From positions 1 to 36,050 of the forward strand of contig JAJYUB010000035.1 in assembly GCA_021792795.1 (NCBI GenBank): a stretch of DNA of 36,050 bases. The letters run 5' to 3'. Below the pieces are notes generated by a model that was not told where the DNA came from, ran no database searches, and saw nothing but the letters and a program-made list of their open reading frames with translations. Made by a program: the position numbers and the translations under genes. This DNA is from Acidobacteriota bacterium (GTDB lineage Bacteria > Acidobacteriota > Terriglobia > Terriglobales > Acidobacteriaceae). Of this stretch, positions 15,485 to 22,178 are shown piece after piece; positions within the stretch are counted from its first letter, which is position 1; the number at the start of each line of letters is the position of its first letter.

Positions 15485-15594
15485 AACCACTCCTCGCGCG
15501 CCCATCTGCATGGTCGAACAGCGCTCGTAGCCGAGTTCGCCGATTTGGGGGACTTGCGCTTTCAGCCCGCCCACTACCCGATCTTCTGGTAGTG

Positions 15595-15624
15595 TTGACA
15601 GCGGCGGTAGCAATGGAATACAAG
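15595..15624 (+). promoter_or_regulatory. Sigma70-like promoter of the fluoride operon
   Basis: A consensus TTGACA at 15595-15600 is followed after 18 bases by TACAAG at 15619-15624 (four of six -10 positions). The predicted transcription start near 15631 falls just before the first aptamer at 15638, which is exactly what a riboswitch-controlled operon needs. Confidence 0.55.
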
Positions 15625-15637
15625 TAAGGGTTGGTTA

Positions 15638-15714
15638 GGTGAGGGAGTTCACCTTTAACCGCTGTCCAATCCAATAGGCCGGACAGATGATGACTCCTGA
15701 CAGGGAATCCTGTC
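15638..15714 (+). ncRNA. Fluoride (crcB-motif) riboswitch, first copy
   Basis: The sequence fits the fluoride riboswitch consensus. There is a 5' hairpin GGTGA/TCACC (15638-15642, 15649-15653) whose loop holds GGAGT (15644-15648). The linker TTTAACC follows, then a second stem CTGTCC/GGACAG (15662-15667, 15681-15686), then ATGATGACTCCTG, where ACTCC (15693-15697) closes the long-range stem with GGAGT. A GACAGG/CCTGTC hairpin (15699-15714) follows directly. ACTCCT (15693-15698) is also complementary to AGGAGT at 15753-15758, the ribosome binding site of the small ORF. Fluoride binding would therefore free that site, suggesting a translational ON switch. The crcB gene downstream in the same direction strongly supports the call. 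Confidence 0.88.
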
Positions 15715-15766
15715 GCGGAGCCATGTCCCGGCACGATCTCTGAACAAAGACTAGGAGTTTGGATCC

Positions 15767-15925
15767 ATGACATACACATGGGTTCTCTTGAATTTTTACG
15801 CCAGTCTGGTGCTTGGCGCAATCGCGCGTGTCATCCCTCGCGCGCAGAGCAAGATCGAAAACCCCATCTATAGGAACGGCGACCAGGTATCGCCGCCATC
15901 TACGACCGCTGGCAGACGTCGGTGA
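15767..15925 (+). CDS. Small (52-residue) putative membrane protein between the two riboswitches
   Basis: ATG 15767 follows an AGGAG ribosome binding site (15753-15757) at nine bases and opens a 52-codon frame. It encodes MTYTWVLLNFYASLVLGAIA followed by a basic, polar tail ending in TTAGRRR. One membrane helix is predicted at about residues 4-24. The stop lies 20 bases before the second aptamer. Its ribosome binding site is complementary to the 3' strand of the first aptamer, so if real it is the direct target of that riboswitch. The LGAIAR stretch is faintly like the LGSIAR start of CrcB; a decayed channel gene is possible. A frame shift near codon 40 would give another ending (AIYDRWQTSVKA), so a broken gene is a second possibility. 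Confidence 0.45.
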   Translation: MTYTWVLLNFYASLVLGAIARVIPRAQSKIENPIYRNGDQVSPPSTTAGRRR

Positions 15926-15945
15926 AGGCATAGCAAATCGCAGTA

Positions 15946-16017
15946 GGTGTTGGAGTCCACCGCAAACCGCTCAACTGGGCAGATGACTCCTCGAAGCTTC
16001 AAATACTTGGAGGAGTC
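15946..16017 (+). ncRNA. Fluoride riboswitch, second copy, with Shine-Dalgarno-sequestering platform
   Basis: A second aptamer: hairpin GGTG/CACC (15946-15949, 15958-15961) with GGAGTC (15952-15957) inside; linker GCAAACC; short stem GCTC/GGGC (15969-15972, 15977-15980); then AGATGACTCCTC. GACTCC (15985-15990) pairs with GGAGTC to close the aptamer. The same strand, GACTCCTC (15985-15992), is the exact reverse complement of GAGGAGTC (16010-16017), which contains the ribosome binding site touching ATG 16018. AAG/CTT (15994-15996, 16006-16008) extends the alternative stem. The two pairings exclude each other. With fluoride the aptamer holds GACTCC and the site is free; without it the site is masked. 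Confidence 0.9.
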
Positions 16018-18111
16018 ATGCCCGAACCCATACCCGATCTCACCATGAACCGACACCCCGGGGAGTTAAATGATCCCCAGCAGAGACATCTCAGAGTCAC
16101 TTGCCAATATATCGACAAGCTTCTGAGCGACGTTGAACACGTTCTTCATGCGGCGACGTCTCCATCTCCATTCCCCCGCTACGTCGTGGACATCACACCC
16201 GCGCAGACCCGCGCGATTGAGGACCACATCCGCCGCCTGCGTTCGCAACTGCTGCGTACGCTGGCCTGGCAGCACATGAGACCAAACTCGCCGGAAATTC
16301 CAGCGACACGCGCGGTGATGACAGACCTGGCTTTTGTCGACATCGCGGTCGAGGAACTAAAACCCGGTTACATGCGTGGCTATGGCGCCGTCCCGGAGGA
16401 TGCGGCAAGCGAACTCAATGGAGTGGTCTACGAGCTTCGCTCCCTGGTCGCAGGCATGGAACGCTATGTCCGCCAGGAGTTGGGTACCAACCTGGAGGCA
16501 CGCCTCCGGAAACTGGAGGAAACCGGGTGCGATGTGGACCTGTTGCGGCTCATGGAGCAGATTGTCACTCGTCAAGGCTTGGTGGAATTCCGATCGCGCA
16601 TCGATTCGCTTGTGTCGAGGCTGGAGGACAACGATTTGGAAGTGGCCCTGTTCGGTCGAGTCGGCAGCGGCAAATCTTCTCTGCTGAATGCGCTGCTCGG
16701 CACGGATGTTCTTCCCGTCGGCATCAACCCCATCACGGCGGTGCCCACCAAATTGCGCTACGGGACATCCTTGCGAGCGACGGTGACCTATGGCGACGGC
16801 AGAAATGAGATCGTCAAGGTCGAGGACCTACCGGGCCTGGTCACGGAAAAAGAGAACCCCGGCAATCTGAGAAATGTCGTGCGAGTGGTGGTTGAGGTCC
16901 CTTCGCCACGCCTCCGGCACGGCATCGTGCTGGTGGATACGCCGGGACTTGGCTCCCTGGCGAGGCGGGGTGGAGCGGAAACTCTGGCCTATCTTCCCAC
17001 ATGCGACCTTGCGCTGCTCTTGATCGATGCATGGGCAACGTTCAACGACGAAGACATCGGAACTCTGCGCCTGCTGTATGAAGCGGGAATCCCCGCCATC
17101 GTTCTACTCAGCAAGGCAGACCTGCTCGCGGAAGGAGATCTGCACCAGGTTGTCGGCTACATTCAGAAACAGATGCAACACGAGTTGGGCCTGGAAATGA
17201 ACGTCCACCCTGTCAGCTCGCTTTCGGGCCATTCCATCCTGCTCGATTATTTCTTTGAGCGGGAGTTGCTTCCCCGATTCGACCAGGCACGCAGTCTCCG
17301 GAACGGCTCGGTCGCAAGAAAGATTGGGACCTTGCGCGACTCGGTGATTGCGGCGCTGGAGACGAACCTCGACCGCAAAAAACGAGGAGGGCACAATCTT
17401 CCAACCGATGCGCAGGGTCTGGAGGAGCGATTGCGCCATCTGACCGGCATGATTGGGGAGCAGCGCACCACTCTCAACGATGCCTTTCTCAAACTCGCGG
17501 AGTCGCCGGAGGCGGTCCTGAGCCAGGTAGCGGATACCGCGCTGCGATGGATGCGAACTCATTCCAAGGCCCGCGTCACTTCCTTCCAACTCTCAGAATG
17601 GATCCACGATGCTGTTCGGCAAGACCTGGAGCGATCCATTGGAAGTGTCGGCTGGGTAAGTCGGCGCGCCATCGACACATTGCTGAGCGTGGCGCAGGAG
17701 ATGGGGCGGACCGACGTGCCTGCCCAGGATGACCTGGAGATTCTCTTGCGCGATATGCCTCGCTTTGAGCTGGCGGCGCTACCGAAGGACATCGACACAA
17801 GCCATTGGATGTTTCTGGGAGATAGCCTGGTCCGCGCCAAAATCAGAAACAGCCTGCGGCAAAGTATCGGCGAATTGCTGCAACAGGAACTTCACCTGTA
17901 CGGTCGCGCGCTGTCGCAGTGGAACCAGCAGTTCGCCAGCAAGATGGAGTTCCTGGTAAGTTCCTACGCCGACGCCTATCGCGTCCAGTTGCACAGGACC
18001 GCGGGGACTGCGAAAGACGCGATCGATGCGCCGCAACTGGAAGACGACCTGGCTCGCCTGAAGAACTGGGGAGTGGATAAGATTTCAAATGAAATGCGAA
18101 CACATGGATAG
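16018..18111 (+). CDS. Dynamin-like large GTPase, fluoride-riboswitch controlled
   Basis: A 697-residue protein with an N-terminal helical region (about 20-205), a central dynamin/Era-type GTPase domain (about 205-420) and a long helical C-terminal part. G motifs: P-loop GRVGSGKS (213-220), switch Thr in NPITAVPTK (Thr240), DTPG (307-310), SKAD in place of NKxD (365-368), and VSSLSG (399-404). No obvious transmembrane helix is present; membrane contact, if any, would be through the helical stalk as in bacterial dynamin-like proteins. ATG 16018 directly follows GGAGGAG (16009-16015), which the second fluoride riboswitch can mask. crcB starts seven bases after its stop. The context implies a role in surviving fluoride, perhaps membrane maintenance or channel assembly; this is inference. 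I know of no described fluoride-linked GTPase of this kind. Confidence 0.85.
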   Translation: MPEPIPDLTMNRHPGELNDPQQRHLRVTCQYIDKLLSDVEHVLHAATSPSPFPRYVVDITPAQTRAIEDHIRRLRSQLLRTLAWQHMRPNSPEIPATRAVMTDLAFVDIAVEELKPGYMRGYGAVPEDAASELNGVVYELRSLVAGMERYVRQELGTNLEARLRKLEETGCDVDLLRLMEQIVTRQGLVEFRSRIDSLVSRLEDNDLEVALFGRVGSGKSSLLNALLGTDVLPVGINPITAVPTKLRYGTSLRATVTYGDGRNEIVKVEDLPGLVTEKENPGNLRNVVRVVVEVPSPRLRHGIVLVDTPGLGSLARRGGAETLAYLPTCDLALLLIDAWATFNDEDIGTLRLLYEAGIPAIVLLSKADLLAEGDLHQVVGYIQKQMQHELGLEMNVHPVSSLSGHSILLDYFFERELLPRFDQARSLRNGSVARKIGTLRDSVIAALETNLDRKKRGGHNLPTDAQGLEERLRHLTGMIGEQRTTLNDAFLKLAESPEAVLSQVADTALRWMRTHSKARVTSFQLSEWIHDAVRQDLERSIGSVGWVSRRAIDTLLSVAQEMGRTDVPAQDDLEILLRDMPRFELAALPKDIDTSHWMFLGDSLVRAKIRNSLRQSIGELLQQELHLYGRALSQWNQQFASKMEFLVSSYADAYRVQLHRTAGTAKDAIDAPQLEDDLARLKNWGVDKISNEMRTHG

Positions 18112-18117
18112 GGAGGC

Positions 18118-18501
18118 ATGAGTTTGTCGAAATATATGTATATTGCGGTGGGCGGGGCGCTGGGCTCCATTGCTAGATTTTGGGTTGGTTCCGCGGTCGC
18201 CAGCCGTCTGGGTACAAAGTTCCCTTACGGGACGTTTGTCATCAACATCACGGCCTGTGTGGTCCTTGGCTTCTCGCTGACGTTTCTGGCCAAGCGGACA
18301 GGCCTGAATCCTGCGTGGAGATTTCTGGCGCCTGTCGGCTTTGTCGGCGCTTACAGCACGTTTTCGACGTATGAGTGGGAGACCCTTTCCACGCTGCGGA
18401 GCGGCGCCTTCTCCATGGCCGCACTCTATGCATTCAGCAGCCTTTTCCTTGGACTTGCGGCCATATGGTGCGGCGCTCTCATCGCAGAGATGATCTCATG
18501 A
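18118..18501 (+). CDS. crcB: Fluoride ion channel/exporter (Fluc)
   Basis: Small four-helix membrane protein that forms an antiparallel dimeric fluoride channel and exports F-. The 127 residues show AVGGALGSIARFW (Arg20), PYGTFVINITACVVLG (Asn43) and the central GFVGAYSTFSTYEWET. The first Phe of the Phe box is present (Phe82); the second position is Tyr85 in place of the usual Phe. Only one crcB gene is here, so a homodimer is expected. GGGAGG lies only one base before ATG 18118 but seven before the in-frame TTG 18124, so the true start may be the TTG. It sits six bases after the GTPase gene and is part of the riboswitch-controlled operon. Confidence 0.94.
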   Translation: MSLSKYMYIAVGGALGSIARFWVGSAVASRLGTKFPYGTFVINITACVVLGFSLTFLAKRTGLNPAWRFLAPVGFVGAYSTFSTYEWETLSTLRSGAFSMAALYAFSSLFLGLAAIWCGALIAEMIS

Positions 18502-18623
18502 GGACCCACAAACAACTCGCCATTCATCAATCGGCCCTGGCGACGAAAGCGATACTTTGACTCTCGCACGGGATAAAATTGCGGCGGAAAGTTCCGATCG
18601 TTCTTGCCACCCGGATTGACGCC

Positions 18624-18761
18624 ATGATCGAGAACTATCGTCGGCGGTTGGCGCAGGAGTTGTTGCAACTCAGCCAAGAACCGGAAACGGACAGGGCTGG
18701 CTGGGGATCGCTCGGACGAACTGCCGGGTTTCTCGTCGCCCAGCGCGGGTTACGCAGGTAA
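18624..18761 (+). CDS. Possible 45-residue ORF between crcB and the DUF190 genes
   Basis: The only open frame filling the 270-base gap after crcB. From ATG 18624 it encodes MIENYRRRLAQELLQLSQEP and a further 25 residues ending in LVAQRGLRR; an in-frame TTG at 18579 would give 60 residues. Its stop overlaps the AAAGGAGG ribosome binding site of the next gene, as expected for coupled genes. It lacks its own Shine-Dalgarno and has no recognisable family. I found no third fluoride aptamer in this gap. Confidence 0.25.
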   Translation: MIENYRRRLAQELLQLSQEPETDRAGWGSLGRTAGFLVAQRGLRR

Positions 18762-18771
18762 AGGAGGATTC

Positions 18772-19494
18772 ATGTTGCATGCAGGCAAGGCAGTCAAGGT
18801 CTCGATCTATCTGAGCGAGGGATCGACACATCACGGGGTTTCAACCTATTCCAGTATTCTGGACTTTCTTTTCTATCGGGGAGTTTCCGGCGCAACCGTG
18901 CTGAAGGGTGTAGCCGGGTTTGGCGCGGACCATCACATCCATTCCGCGAGTTTCGTCGAAATTTCGGACCACTTGCCGCTGAAGATTGAATTTATCGAAT
19001 CGCGGGAAAAGGTGGATGAGCTTCTTGGGAAACTGAAGAAAATGGCTGGTACCGGCATGATCGAAGTGCAAGAGACTACGGTGGCCAAGCCGGCCCAGGC
19101 TTCGAAGCGGAAGAGTCCCGCGCTCCCAGCGCACATGAAGATCGAAGGCAGAGCCAGGCTGATGCGCATCTACATCGGTGAATCCGACCGGTGGAAAGAT
19201 AAGCCACTTTACAAGGCACTCGTTGAAGCAATGCGGGCCAACGACATTGCCGGCGTCACCGTCTATCGCGGCATTCTTGGCTACGGCGCGCACAGGCGGG
19301 TCCACAAGAACAAGCCCCTGCACCTGTCCCGCGATTGCTCGATCATGCTCTCGGTGATCGATACGGAAGAGAAGCTGCAATCCTTTCTGCCGATAGTCGA
19401 ACAAATGGTCCAGGAAGGATTGGTCGTTTTGTCGGACGTAGACATCATTAAGTACTCCTATCGCGCGCTGGATACGAATCAAGACGCGGTATGA
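18772..19494 (+). CDS. Tandem two-domain DUF190 protein
   Basis: DUF190 (PF02641) proteins are small alpha/beta proteins with a PII/ferredoxin-like fold, frequently encoded beside crcB; their molecular role is not established. Here two copies are fused in 240 residues. Domain 1 (about 7-103) has KVSIYLSEGSTHHGVSTYSS, VSGATVLKGVAGFGADHHIH and the closing ISDHLPLKIEFIES segment. Domain 2 (about 126-230) has RARLMRIYIGESDRWKDKPL, IAGVTVYRGILGYGAHRRVH and DCSIMLSVIDTEEKL. They are joined by a Lys/Ala-rich linker. Domain 1 replaces the usual D(K/R)W.GKPL stretch with STHHGVSTYS, so the two copies have diverged. An excellent AAAGGAGG precedes ATG 18772. The stop overlaps the start of the next DUF190 gene. 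Confidence 0.9.
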   Translation: MLHAGKAVKVSIYLSEGSTHHGVSTYSSILDFLFYRGVSGATVLKGVAGFGADHHIHSASFVEISDHLPLKIEFIESREKVDELLGKLKKMAGTGMIEVQETTVAKPAQASKRKSPALPAHMKIEGRARLMRIYIGESDRWKDKPLYKALVEAMRANDIAGVTVYRGILGYGAHRRVHKNKPLHLSRDCSIMLSVIDTEEKLQSFLPIVEQMVQEGLVVLSDVDIIKYSYRALDTNQDAV

Positions 19495-19892
19495 GCGGAG
19501 AGATGACCATGAAAGAACAGTTCCAAGCGCGTATGTTGCGGATACATTTTGGTGAAGATGACAAGTGGCAGGGCAAGCCCTTGCAGGAGGCGATTTTCGC
19601 CAAATGTATGGAACTGGGAATGGCCGGCGCTACCGTGTATCGAGGAATTGAAGGGTATGGGGCCAGCACCAGGATCCATCGTGCCAGTCATTGGACGTTT
19701 TCAAAAGACGCACCGGTCATGGTGAGCATCATCGACACCGAGGAGCAGATTGCCAAGCTCATTCCGCATCTGGATGCAATGGTCGAGGAAGGCCTGATCG
19801 CGACCTCCCGAGTCGATGTGATCCGGTATTCACGAAATCAAGCAACACGCCGTAGAAAGCAGAATGCGATTTTCACGGGGGCACAAGAATAA
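19491..19892 (+). CDS. DUF190 protein, third domain of the locus
   Basis: Single-domain DUF190 protein of 133 residues: RMLRIHFGEDDKWQGKPLQE, MAGATVYRGIEGYGASTRIH, PVMVSIIDTEEQI and a C-terminal VDVIRYSRNQATRRRKQN tail rich in basic residues. It is closest to domain 2 of the preceding gene, with which it shares the intact KW.(D/G)KPL stretch. ATG 19491 overlaps the preceding stop (ATGA). ATG 19509, with GGAGAG six bases before it, is an equally good start and would remove six residues. It is the last recognisable gene of the fluoride operon. Confidence 0.88.
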   Translation: MSGEMTMKEQFQARMLRIHFGEDDKWQGKPLQEAIFAKCMELGMAGATVYRGIEGYGASTRIHRASHWTFSKDAPVMVSIIDTEEQIAKLIPHLDAMVEEGLIATSRVDVIRYSRNQATRRRKQNAIFTGAQE

Positions 19893-20347: not shown

Positions 20348-20424
20348 TGGTGCGCCCCGAGGGATTCGAACCCCCGGCCTTCTGGTTCGTAGCCAGACGC
20401 TCTATCCAACTGAGCTAGGGGCGC
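20348..20424 (-). tRNA. tRNA-Arg (ACG)
   Basis: Minus-strand cloverleaf of 77 bases. Acceptor GCGCCCC pairs with GGGGCGC, with discriminator A and encoded CCA. The D-arm is AGCTCAGTTGGATAGAGC. Anticodon stem TCTGG/CCAGA surrounds loop CTACGAA with anticodon ACG, and the T-loop is GTTCGAATC. The A at the wobble position implies deamination to inosine by TadA. Confidence 0.97.
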
Positions 20425-20604
20425 ACAAGAAACGGATGTGCGTGCTTCGGTGAAAAGCAGCAGTTTCTAACTTATCAGGAGCCGTGTTTCGGCGCAAATT
20501 TTTTGCGTGGAAGACAGCCGGTGAGTTTGGGGGAATGCCTATGAGTGGGGTGTAATGGAGGCATACGCTTGTGGTCTATTGTTGCGCTATCAGGACAGGA
20601 ATGG

Positions 20605-21396
20605 ATGATGACTTACGTCGCTGGAGACGAACCCACCAAGCTCACCGCAGGAAGTTCTATGGCAACTGGACGCAAGCGGCGCGACGTACTGGAACTTGGC
20701 GCGGGGTATGGATTGGTTCTGCTGGTGATCTGGACGCCTCGCCCGCTACAAACGGTTCTTTTTTACGTGGCCGTCGCCGCACTGGCGGCGATCTTCTGGA
20801 GGTCATTCAAGAGCTGGTCGGCGATGGGCCTGCGTACGGCGAATTTCCTTCGTTCCCTCTGGGTGATGGGCGTGGCCATGATACTGGCCACAGTCGCTGT
20901 GTTTCTTGCCATTCGACTCCACACCTTGCACGTGCCGGATGGCCTTGTGCTTTTCCTCAAGACCTATTGGGGTTACGCCCTTTGGTCTTTTGTGCAACAG
21001 ATTCTGCTGCTCGACTTTTTCCTGCTGCGCCTGCTTCGTTTGCTACCCGGGAGAAAATCCGCAGTGGCAGCGACGGCGGGAATCTTCGCCTTGGCGCATC
21101 TGCCGAACCCGATACTGACGCCGCTGACCCTTCTCTGGGGCCTGGCAGCGTGCCTGGTTTTTCTTCGTTACCGCAACCTCTATCCTTTGGCCATGGCGCA
21201 CGCCATTTTCGGCATCTGCATCGCCATTACGGTGCCCGGGCCGGCCAGCCATAACATGCGGGTTGGCCTGGGATATCTGCAGTATCGGCCGTCTCGAAAT
21301 CGTCAACGCAGCCAAATTGACCAAATCGTGTCCACGCAGGCGTGGGTGATCGCGGAGGCCCCAACCCGGCGCTGCTGGCGCCATGCGCGGCCGTAG
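20605..21396 (+). CDS. CPBP-family membrane protein with altered catalytic motif
   Basis: Multi-pass membrane protein of 263 residues in the CPBP (CAAX protease and bacteriocin-processing) superfamily. The conserved core is present: WSFVQQILLLDFFLLRLLRL (about 128-147), FALAHLPNPILTPLTLLWGL with its His165, and YPLAMAHAIFG with His199. However, the Glu-Glu of motif 1 is replaced by Gln-Gln (131-132). Peptidase activity is therefore doubtful unless this subgroup uses other residues. ATG 20605 has AGGA four bases before it, and ATG 20608 is equally good. The last 27 or so residues after YLQYRPS look like read-through: they are basic, of low similarity to a CPBP tail, and lie opposite the 3' end of the convergent gene. 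Confidence 0.75.
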   Translation: MMTYVAGDEPTKLTAGSSMATGRKRRDVLELGAGYGLVLLVIWTPRPLQTVLFYVAVAALAAIFWRSFKSWSAMGLRTANFLRSLWVMGVAMILATVAVFLAIRLHTLHVPDGLVLFLKTYWGYALWSFVQQILLLDFFLLRLLRLLPGRKSAVAATAGIFALAHLPNPILTPLTLLWGLAACLVFLRYRNLYPLAMAHAIFGICIAITVPGPASHNMRVGLGYLQYRPSRNRQRSQIDQIVSTQAWVIAEAPTRRCWRHARP

Positions 21397-22178
21397 AAGA
21401 TTCCCGCCAACGCGGCCAGCAACACATACCGCCAGTTGAAATGAACGGCGCGCTTGTTAAAATGCGCCAACCCAAATAGTGCTGCCGTCAAAAACAGTGA
21501 TGGATAACGACCGATGCGCCGCTCCAGCAGGTTCTGTAGCCATCCGCGAAAGAAAAGCTCCTCCGGAACGGCAATGAAGAAAAAGGTGAAGAGAACCGCT
21601 CCCGGCAACCGAGGCAGCCATGGCGCCGATGGATGCAGATGCAGAAAACCCAGGCCCAGTCCAAGCGAAATCGCGATCGGCGTGTAGAAGGCCAGTTCCC
21701 GCAACCCGATGCCGAGATCGCGCAGGCGCAGGCGTAGATTGAATCCAACGTTCTCCAGTCGCCGTACCACAAGGAATCCCCAGATGCCGGCATCGAGAAG
21801 AAGAATCTTGTTGAAGACGGTAAGATGGGCCGGCCAAGCATGCTCAAACCAGCGAAGATCGATAGCCAAACCAAGGACCGCGAGGACCAGAAAGTCGCAC
21901 CAGTTGCCGTGCCGAGCGGGATCGCTGCGCGTTGCCTGCCACATCAGCGTGGAAATGGCGACTGGCAGCAGCGCATATAAGGCCAGCCATTCCCATCGGA
22001 AGGTCCCTGTGGAAAGCGCGACCAGCAGATAGGGCACACACAAGACCGATGGCACAAGGAGCCGCGCGCTCGTCGGGAGTGCTTCCGTTGCGCAGGCAAG
22101 CTGGGTCGCGAAAAACGCTGCCGTCAAAAACGGTATTAGCGTGAAAAGGGCCGCCATCGCAATTGCGGGACTGATCAT
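21303..22178 (-). CDS. CPBP-family intramembrane glutamic endopeptidase
   Basis: Integral membrane protease of 291 residues with the full CPBP signature. Motif 1 is VPEELFFRG (Glu206, Glu207, Arg211), motif 2 FGLAHF (His239), and motif 3 ASAITHACVDTIW (His279). About eight hydrophobic segments precede or contain these. Substrates of bacterial CPBP proteases vary (prenylated proteins, bacteriocin precursors, signalling proteins) and cannot be told from sequence. It is convergent with the preceding CPBP-like gene and overlaps its 3' end by 94 bases. No ribosome binding site of good quality precedes ATG 22178. Confidence 0.85.
   Translation of the reverse strand: MISPAIAMAALFTLIPFLTAAFFATQLACATEALPTSARLLVPSVLCVPYLLVALSTGTFRWEWLALYALLPVAISTLMWQATRSDPARHGNWCDFLVLAVLGLAIDLRWFEHAWPAHLTVFNKILLLDAGIWGFLVVRRLENVGFNLRLRLRDLGIGLRELAFYTPIAISLGLGLGFLHLHPSAPWLPRLPGAVLFTFFFIAVPEELFFRGWLQNLLERRIGRYPSLFLTAALFGLAHFNKRAVHFNWRYVLLAALAGIFYGRAWRQQRRVGASAITHACVDTIWSIWLR

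Follow-up and report, generated by a model that had tools for sequence, protein, structure and literature searches.

The stretch of DNA analyzed in the present study, referred to below as the window, comprises 36,050 nucleotides (nt) of contig JAJYUB010000035.1 from an Acidobacteriota bacterium of the family Acidobacteriaceae (assembly GCA_021792795.1). It appears to carry an operon for fluoride resistance, of which a dynamin-like GTPase, termed GTPase A or type A, is a regular member, and we lean modestly toward the full explanation, in which the GTPase would be controlled by a fluoride-responsive translational switch and would act on the membrane. The original prediction, which was made from the letters of the window, was that of a fluoride operon led by such a GTPase. 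The GTPase gene (16018-18111, + strand) encodes 697 amino acids (aa) with a Dynamin_N match of 84.6 bits against a cut-off of 27 (E-value 1e-23), which supports the proposed dynamin-like identity. Both of the fluoride aptamers that had been proposed upstream were recovered: aptamer 1 (15629-15706, + strand) scored 39.6 bits with RF01734, over the gathering score of 34, while aptamer 2 (15937-15999, + strand), which is assigned to the GTPase, was weaker at 27.4 bits, under the gathering score, but conserved.

The association of the GTPase with fluoride aptamers was investigated in 80 loci from named genomes, which were found using 11 homologues from a protein search alone as queries and are the best 80 of 173 confirmed relatives. 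These loci are mostly from Acidobacteriota, with several from Planctomycetota, two from Verrucomicrobiota (Limisphaerales and Opitutia), one from a Proteobacteria bin, and one from a bin labelled Methanoregula. An aptamer model, R1, was built from 22 aptamers of this analysis and run on the 80 loci, 76 of which were testable in that the sequence included the GTPase N-terminus and no less than 300 nt 5' of the gene; L116 and L124 were dropped for the lack of the N-terminus and L062 and L071 for less than 300 nt upstream, the latter two having an aptamer 19-20 nt 5' of the gene. A same-strand aptamer was present within 300 nt upstream of the GTPase in 54 of the 76 loci and within 3 kb in 69, and the aptamer density elsewhere in the loci was 0.016 per 300-nt strand. 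Seven of the 80 loci were also in the first set (L061, L062, L088, L091, L111, L113, and L124), and L061, L088, L091, L111, and L113 had contributed aptamers to R1; without the loci that fed R1, the counts were 49/71 (300 nt) and 64/71 (3 kb). The model of Rfam itself was run on nine of the 80 loci and on the 20 first loci. It detected an aptamer in all nine of the former, which are more distant; the aptamer was on the GTPase strand and upstream in eight and on the opposite strand in L134. It also detected at least one aptamer in 17 of the 20 first loci, the sequence of the remaining three (L050, L053, and L054) starting inside the GTPase or 93 nt before it. The GTPase A locus from the bin labelled Methanoregula sp. 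(L112, DADT01000057.1) is of the bacterial type, has five aptamers above the gathering score, and represents contamination or transfer.

In the window, crcB, which encodes a Fluc fluoride channel (18118-18501; TIGR00494, 104.2 vs. 80.45), starts six bases past the GTPase stop codon, followed by genes for a protein with two DUF190 (PII-like) domains (18772-19494; DUF190 in two stretches, 4.3e-63; P-II, 2.6e-11) and a single-domain DUF190 protein (19491-19892; DUF190, 1.3e-34). The aptamers, the GTPase gene, crcB, and both DUF190 genes are all on the + strand, and these coordinates and profile matches agree with the predicted arrangement of crcB and three DUF190 domains. Ratios of nonsynonymous to synonymous substitution rates (dN/dS) indicated purifying selection on the GTPase (0.17-0.27 against L040, L041, and L050), and the values were 0.14 and 0.21 for crcB and 0.10 for the two-domain DUF190 protein. 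For relatives in which 6 kb or more of sequence follows GTPase A, 46 loci in all, the genes within 6 kb of A were counted. A B-like dynamin, defined as a dynamin with a higher score on the B than on the A profile and at least 50 bits, was present in 33, DUF190 in 31, CrcB in 27, and enolase in 24, followed by a MutS-like protein in 10, a Na/H exchanger in nine, Usp in eight, and pyrophosphatase in five; the exchanger and Usp counts are rough because these profiles were made from two sequences and one sequence, respectively. In 37 of the 46 loci, GTPase A was accompanied by one or more members of the set of CrcB, DUF190, enolase, pyrophosphatase, Na/H exchanger, and Usp. The recurrence of homologues beside crcB, DUF190, and aptamers, on which the original prediction had been made to depend, was thus observed with each of the three partners.

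The island in L040 has five aptamers over the gathering score and genes for a pyrophosphatase, an MFS transporter, two MutS-like proteins, an enolase, GTPase A, CrcB, and DUF190, together with two dynamins besides A. In five planctomycete loci, a B-like dynamin is located directly under an aptamer. L040 also encodes an AAA-type ATPase of approximately 250 aa (L040:2388-3137; AAA_16 barely at the cut-off), relatives of which are present in 26 of the 80 loci. A 1207-aa SMC protein is encoded just 5' of an aptamer-led dynamin in L173 (1229-4852), and genes of the same length occupy this place in L170 (536-4159) and L174 (7502-11125), the Pfam assignment being from L173. In L172 (8810-10650), a second aptamer leads a 276-aa open reading frame (ORF) with no Pfam match, a 123-aa ORF, and two formate/nitrite transporter genes (PF01226); L173 and L174 share this arrangement by gene size and order, the Pfam scan being of L172.

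Wider genome samples indicate that particular dynamin subfamilies, rather than dynamins at large, are associated with fluoride. Among 151 Terriglobia genomes, Dynamin_N (E-value up to 1e-10) was found in 28 and RF01734 in 91, and RF01734 was present in 24 of the 28 genomes with a dynamin and in 67 of the 123 without (odds ratio 5.0, p = 0.0024). Of the 59 Dynamin_N matches in these genomes, 47 had an aptamer no more than 10 kb away, and 30 had a same-strand one up to 3 kb upstream; among the 12 misses, G192:C10 gained an aptamer by R1 (L162, 49.7 bits), and of the 29 loci that this search listed, 15 had an aptamer by R1. In 149 planctomycete genomes, six of 86 dynamin genes were near an aptamer, all six less than 1 kb downstream of one on the same strand, and the remaining 80 were not near an aptamer. 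A tree was built from 59 G domains, with every third A protein and every second B protein included. The 15 sampled A proteins formed one clade with support of 100/99, while B-like proteins were placed at more than one point; two control rows were outside the length limits and several control branches were long. The clade of A and the aptamer-poor planctomycete dynamins together underlie the restriction to subfamilies. The sister of the A clade was a 248-aa fragment (L189, G138) without a nearby RF01734 match. R1 had no matches in the 20 loci L175-L194, which were preselected as dynamins without an RF01734 match, so that this result only shows that stricter filters hid none and is not an independent control.

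Regarding the order of the genes, comparison of the loci indicates that the operon in the window arose by a deletion in which an enolase gene was lost. In L041 and L052, approximately 1.35 kb separate the sequences that flank the junction 15892/15893, and the matching interval in L039 and L040 is occupied by a gene for enolase, with the Pfam domains Enolase_N and Enolase_C, which in these relatives is preceded by aptamer 1. The deletion scar (15767-15933, + strand) consists of the leader to 15892 fused to the last approximately 41 bases of the 3' end of the enolase gene (15893-15933), including its stop codon at 15931-15933. Since the alignment with another genome, G006 (L051), runs uninterrupted across the junction, the deletion is common to both and is not an assembly fault of the window genome. 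The region between the aptamers as the scar of a deleted enolase implies that the GTPase was not the original first gene, and the former position of the enolase implies that aptamer 1 belonged to it and that aptamer 2 serves the GTPase. In this respect, the original reading of an operon led by the GTPase is corrected. A 52-aa ORF at 15767-15925 was considered as a small membrane protein and rejected; it is probably not a gene because it spans the junction and has no Pfam match.

Enolase homologues were found in 44 of the 80 loci using the L041 ORF 4167-5495, which was assigned by its enolase position and not by a Pfam scan, as a query. The genome of the window itself retains a second operon copy with an intact enolase on contig C97 (L039, G000:C97:1-10250), with three aptamer matches, one of which is under the gathering score; its GTPase is truncated by the contig end and is 99% identical to that of the window over 232 residues. 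The C97 copy is accompanied by a divergent aptamer-led operon for a complex-I/hydrogenase-like antiporter. The genome G004 likewise has two copies of GTPase A, which are 97 and 80% identical.

The position of aptamer 2 suggests how the GTPase may be controlled. Its E-value was 9e-5 when the search was restricted to 15550-18800, and an aptamer is kept 17-22 nt 5' of the start codon in 25 of the 80 loci. In an alignment of 25 sequences, consisting of the window and 24 relatives chosen for an aptamer near the start codon, P1, P2, and the pseudoknot of aptamer 2 formed standard pairs in 100% of 324 cells; 12 of the 13 pairs were invariant, and this evidence is consequently conservation, not covariation. 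The proposed switch hairpin (15983-16019, + strand) has one arm at 15983-15992, part of which closes the pseudoknot of aptamer 2, and this arm is an exact 10-pair complement of the other at 16010-16019, which holds the Shine-Dalgarno bases and the AU of the GTPase start codon. The hairpin was present in the minimum-energy fold (z = -3.41), and 95.1% of its cells were paired in the 25 sequences vs. 35-53% after sliding. In a test of the helix against shuffled sequences, only 18 of 49 scored loci were at 10 or fewer of 200 shuffles; three further loci without the motif were left unscored, and variant motifs were scored from CTCCT onwards. Where the gap between the aptamer and start is longer, the complementary stretch is often found a short way past the aptamer, and loci in which the gap is larger, in many cases 60-130 nt, must rely on a different arrangement.

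Based on these features, we infer fluoride induction and translational control of the GTPase. A rise in cytosolic fluoride would fold aptamer 2, the pseudoknot of which would sequester the strand that otherwise masks the Shine-Dalgarno sequence and start codon; the freed ribosome-binding site would then allow the translation of the GTPase and, given the close spacing, CrcB would probably be translated along with it. A number of soil bacteria, probably many, would seem to induce a dynamin-like GTPase jointly with the genes for fluoride export in this way, by means of a fluoride-sensing RNA directly 5' of the GTPase gene.

GTPase A is a dynamin-family GTPase with, as judged from its predicted structure, a mitofusin/Fzo1/IniA/BDLP-like architecture. 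The AlphaFold model had a mean predicted local distance difference test score (pLDDT) of 80.2 and a predicted template modeling score (pTM) of 0.50, and consisted of an N-terminal helical domain (approximately residues 1-168, pLDDT 89.1), the G domain, and a dynamin-type helical part. Residues 164-692 matched Fzo1 and mitofusin 1 with Z-scores of 24.8-25.8 and a root-mean-square deviation (rmsd) of 3.1-3.8 over 296-317 residues, including 5yew_A (308 residues, Z = 25.8, rmsd 3.8). The leading Foldseek matches were IniA, which ranked first (3.2e-18), and BDLP, with low whole-chain TM-scores of 0.2-0.34, which limits the likeness to domain arrangement; by sequence profile, the best PDB entries were Cj-DLP1/2 (5owv, 5oxf). 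The N-terminal domain had no accepted fold match, the best being an E-value of 0.34 in Foldseek and a Z-score of 7.8 over 68 residues in VIA-align. Among the G1-G5 motifs that had been assigned to the protein, G1 (GRVGSGKS at 213), G3 (DTPG at 307), and G4 (SKAD at 365) were located, T240, which is invariant across 43 homologues, is the likely G2 residue, and G5 was not pinned down. The textbook G4 motif is N/TKxD, and GTPase A has SKAD in its place; the G1, G3, and G4 residues were invariant or almost so among the homologues. In type B dynamin, and not in A, hydropathy suggested a candidate hydrophobic tip at approximately residue 485. The N-terminal domain also occurs as a stand-alone small gene (L056:9517-9993, L057:1227-1673, L058:7546-8019, and L173:10937-11344), adjoining CrcB and DUF190 in L056 and L058, right after an aptamer in L057, and with a B-like dynamin in L173.

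By analogy with bacterial dynamin pairs, the GTPase most likely serves to remodel or repair membranes. GTPase A, usually with the second dynamin B in intact relatives, would bind the inner membrane, and the A/B pair, as with Cj-DLP1/2, DynA, or IniA, may tether, fuse, or trim it, a step suggested by homology only. This would keep the membrane tight and maintain the proton gradient while hydrogen fluoride (HF) enters and fluoride leaves. The entry of HF is described in PMC11139923 as lowering cytoplasmic pH and the proton-motive force, which provides a plausible reason why a tight membrane would matter most at that time. A membrane action was also proposed for paired bacterial dynamins in PMC6104087.

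Support for the fluoride control of the GTPase is strong and comes from comparison, not experiment. Several observations weigh against the proposed explanation. Seven of the 76 testable loci (L082, L084, L089, L101, L132, L134, and L139) had no same-strand upstream aptamer, and in the planctomycete sample Dynamin_N (50/149 genomes) and RF01734 (21/149) co-occurred in nine genomes, which was not significant (p = 0.33). The switch hairpin showed no compensatory changes among the 25 aligned sequences, its evidence being conservation only. By hydropathy, the sole measure used, GTPase A has no transmembrane segment and no clear hydrophobic tip. No second dynamin B was found in the window or the assembled, 98.2%-complete genome, in which A may act alone or with a partner that is absent from the assembly.

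An unlikely alternative is that, instead of remodelling membranes, the GTPase and the PII-like DUF190 proteins jointly act on CrcB, by assembling, clustering, or gating it, in the manner that GlnK acts on AmtB. CrcB begins less than 400 nt after A in 30 of the 80 loci, the DUF190 protein also matches the P-II family, and in L056 and L058 the N-terminal domain of A stands alone beside CrcB and DUF190, all of which would suit an accessory of the channel. On the other hand, CrcB was within 6 kb in only 27 of the 46 loci, blastp around the B-type dynamins in the five loci from planctomycetes recognized neither CrcB nor DUF190, and the dynamin architecture points to membranes.

It is somewhat more doubtful that fluoride acts on the protein itself, with the GTPase being a target or sensor of metal fluoride that is overproduced or serves as a protein-level switch. 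GDP with MgFx or AlFx is a transition-state mimic in GTPases, and the nearly invariant motif residues are compatible with such binding. Enolase and pyrophosphatase, which occur in the same islands, are known to be inhibited by fluoride (PMC11139923), and a Cj-DLP1 structure is described as GDP.AlF4-bound (PMC6104087). A fluoride sink would, however, demand far more protein than fluoride allows, and the form of this model in which the GTPase is a replacement isozyme is disfavored. A spare isozyme, by which a housekeeping dynamin would have a fluoride-resistant counterpart as in the case of enolase, was considered and is disfavored because only two Dynamin_N matches (E-value up to 1e-5) were found in the 98.2%-complete genome, both of which are the fluoride copies.

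We regard as improbable the more elaborate scenario of a dedicated A/B dynamin system for fluoride in several phyla, with a separable N-terminal adaptor domain, which would be made only under fluoride and remodel the inner membrane with a GTPase cycle gated by GDP-metal-fluoride complexes; if true, RNA and protein would sense the same ion within one operon. Least probable of all is a passenger or phage-defense element, namely a Leo-type dynamin pair in mobile islands under incidental riboswitch control, because, despite weak PADLOC matches to LeoA and LeoBC and the presence of the operon in two copies with differing flanks in some genomes, A shares with LeoA/LeoBC its membership of the dynamin superfamily and only P-loop-level similarity (36 residues for LeoA and 51 for LeoBC, with no full-length match), occurs in a fluoride-island context, has an aptamer directly 5' of the gene in most homologues across several phyla, and is under purifying selection.

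The membrane-remodelling role that we prefer may be compared with known systems. GTPase A shares the G domain and dynamin-type helical part with IniA, BDLP1, SynDLP, and mitofusin/Fzo1, which differ in organism, trigger, and N-terminal part. The Campylobacter proteins Cj-DLP1 and Cj-DLP2 are likewise an operon-borne dynamin pair, one with an extra N-terminal domain (PMC6104087); unlike in the window, this pair is outside a fluoride operon. For GTPase A, the N-terminal domain could not be assigned to a known fold by an accepted match, and its genome yielded no B. The six-gene fluoride-riboswitch operon of Enterobacter cloacae FRM (ppaC, uspA, eno, gpmA, crcB, and orf5249, as listed in PMC5533749) similarly combines a fluoride aptamer with crcB, and relatives of the window operon also have enolase, pyrophosphatase, and Usp. 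That gene list has neither a dynamin nor DUF190, whereas the window has two aptamers, the second of which is right before the GTPase.

The genes that PMC11139923 names under fluoride riboswitches encode exporters, Na/H antiporters, pyrophosphatase, enolase, and formate hydrogenlyase, with neither GTPase nor MutS in its main text. Resistance is attributed there to export, to inhibited enzymes being replaced or made in excess, to the control of pH and ions, and to general stress genes. PMC7266159 mentions genes for DNA repair, and in the passages covered of a fluoride riboswitch study (PMC9971707) GTPase occurs in the reference list only. In agreement with the earlier statement that no fluoride-controlled dynamin was known to have been reported, none was found in searchable open-access full text, a scope by which priority is not proven. 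The fluoride regulon and bacterial dynamins are each known, and their standing combination appears to be new. A riboswitch-led dynamin as a regular member would add a membrane arm to fluoride resistance and would suggest the envelope as a target of fluoride or HF. To our knowledge, the triggers of bacterial dynamins are mostly unknown; a defined inducer, sodium fluoride (NaF), for one group of them would make its function directly testable.

Scans for promoters and terminators revealed nothing convincing, with two promoter-like sites, both on the opposite strand, vs. 2.5 expected and eight terminator-like sites vs. 4.1 expected. On the 3' side of the operon, the window has a tRNA gene and two convergent Rce1-like genes of the CAAX protease family at 20351-22178.

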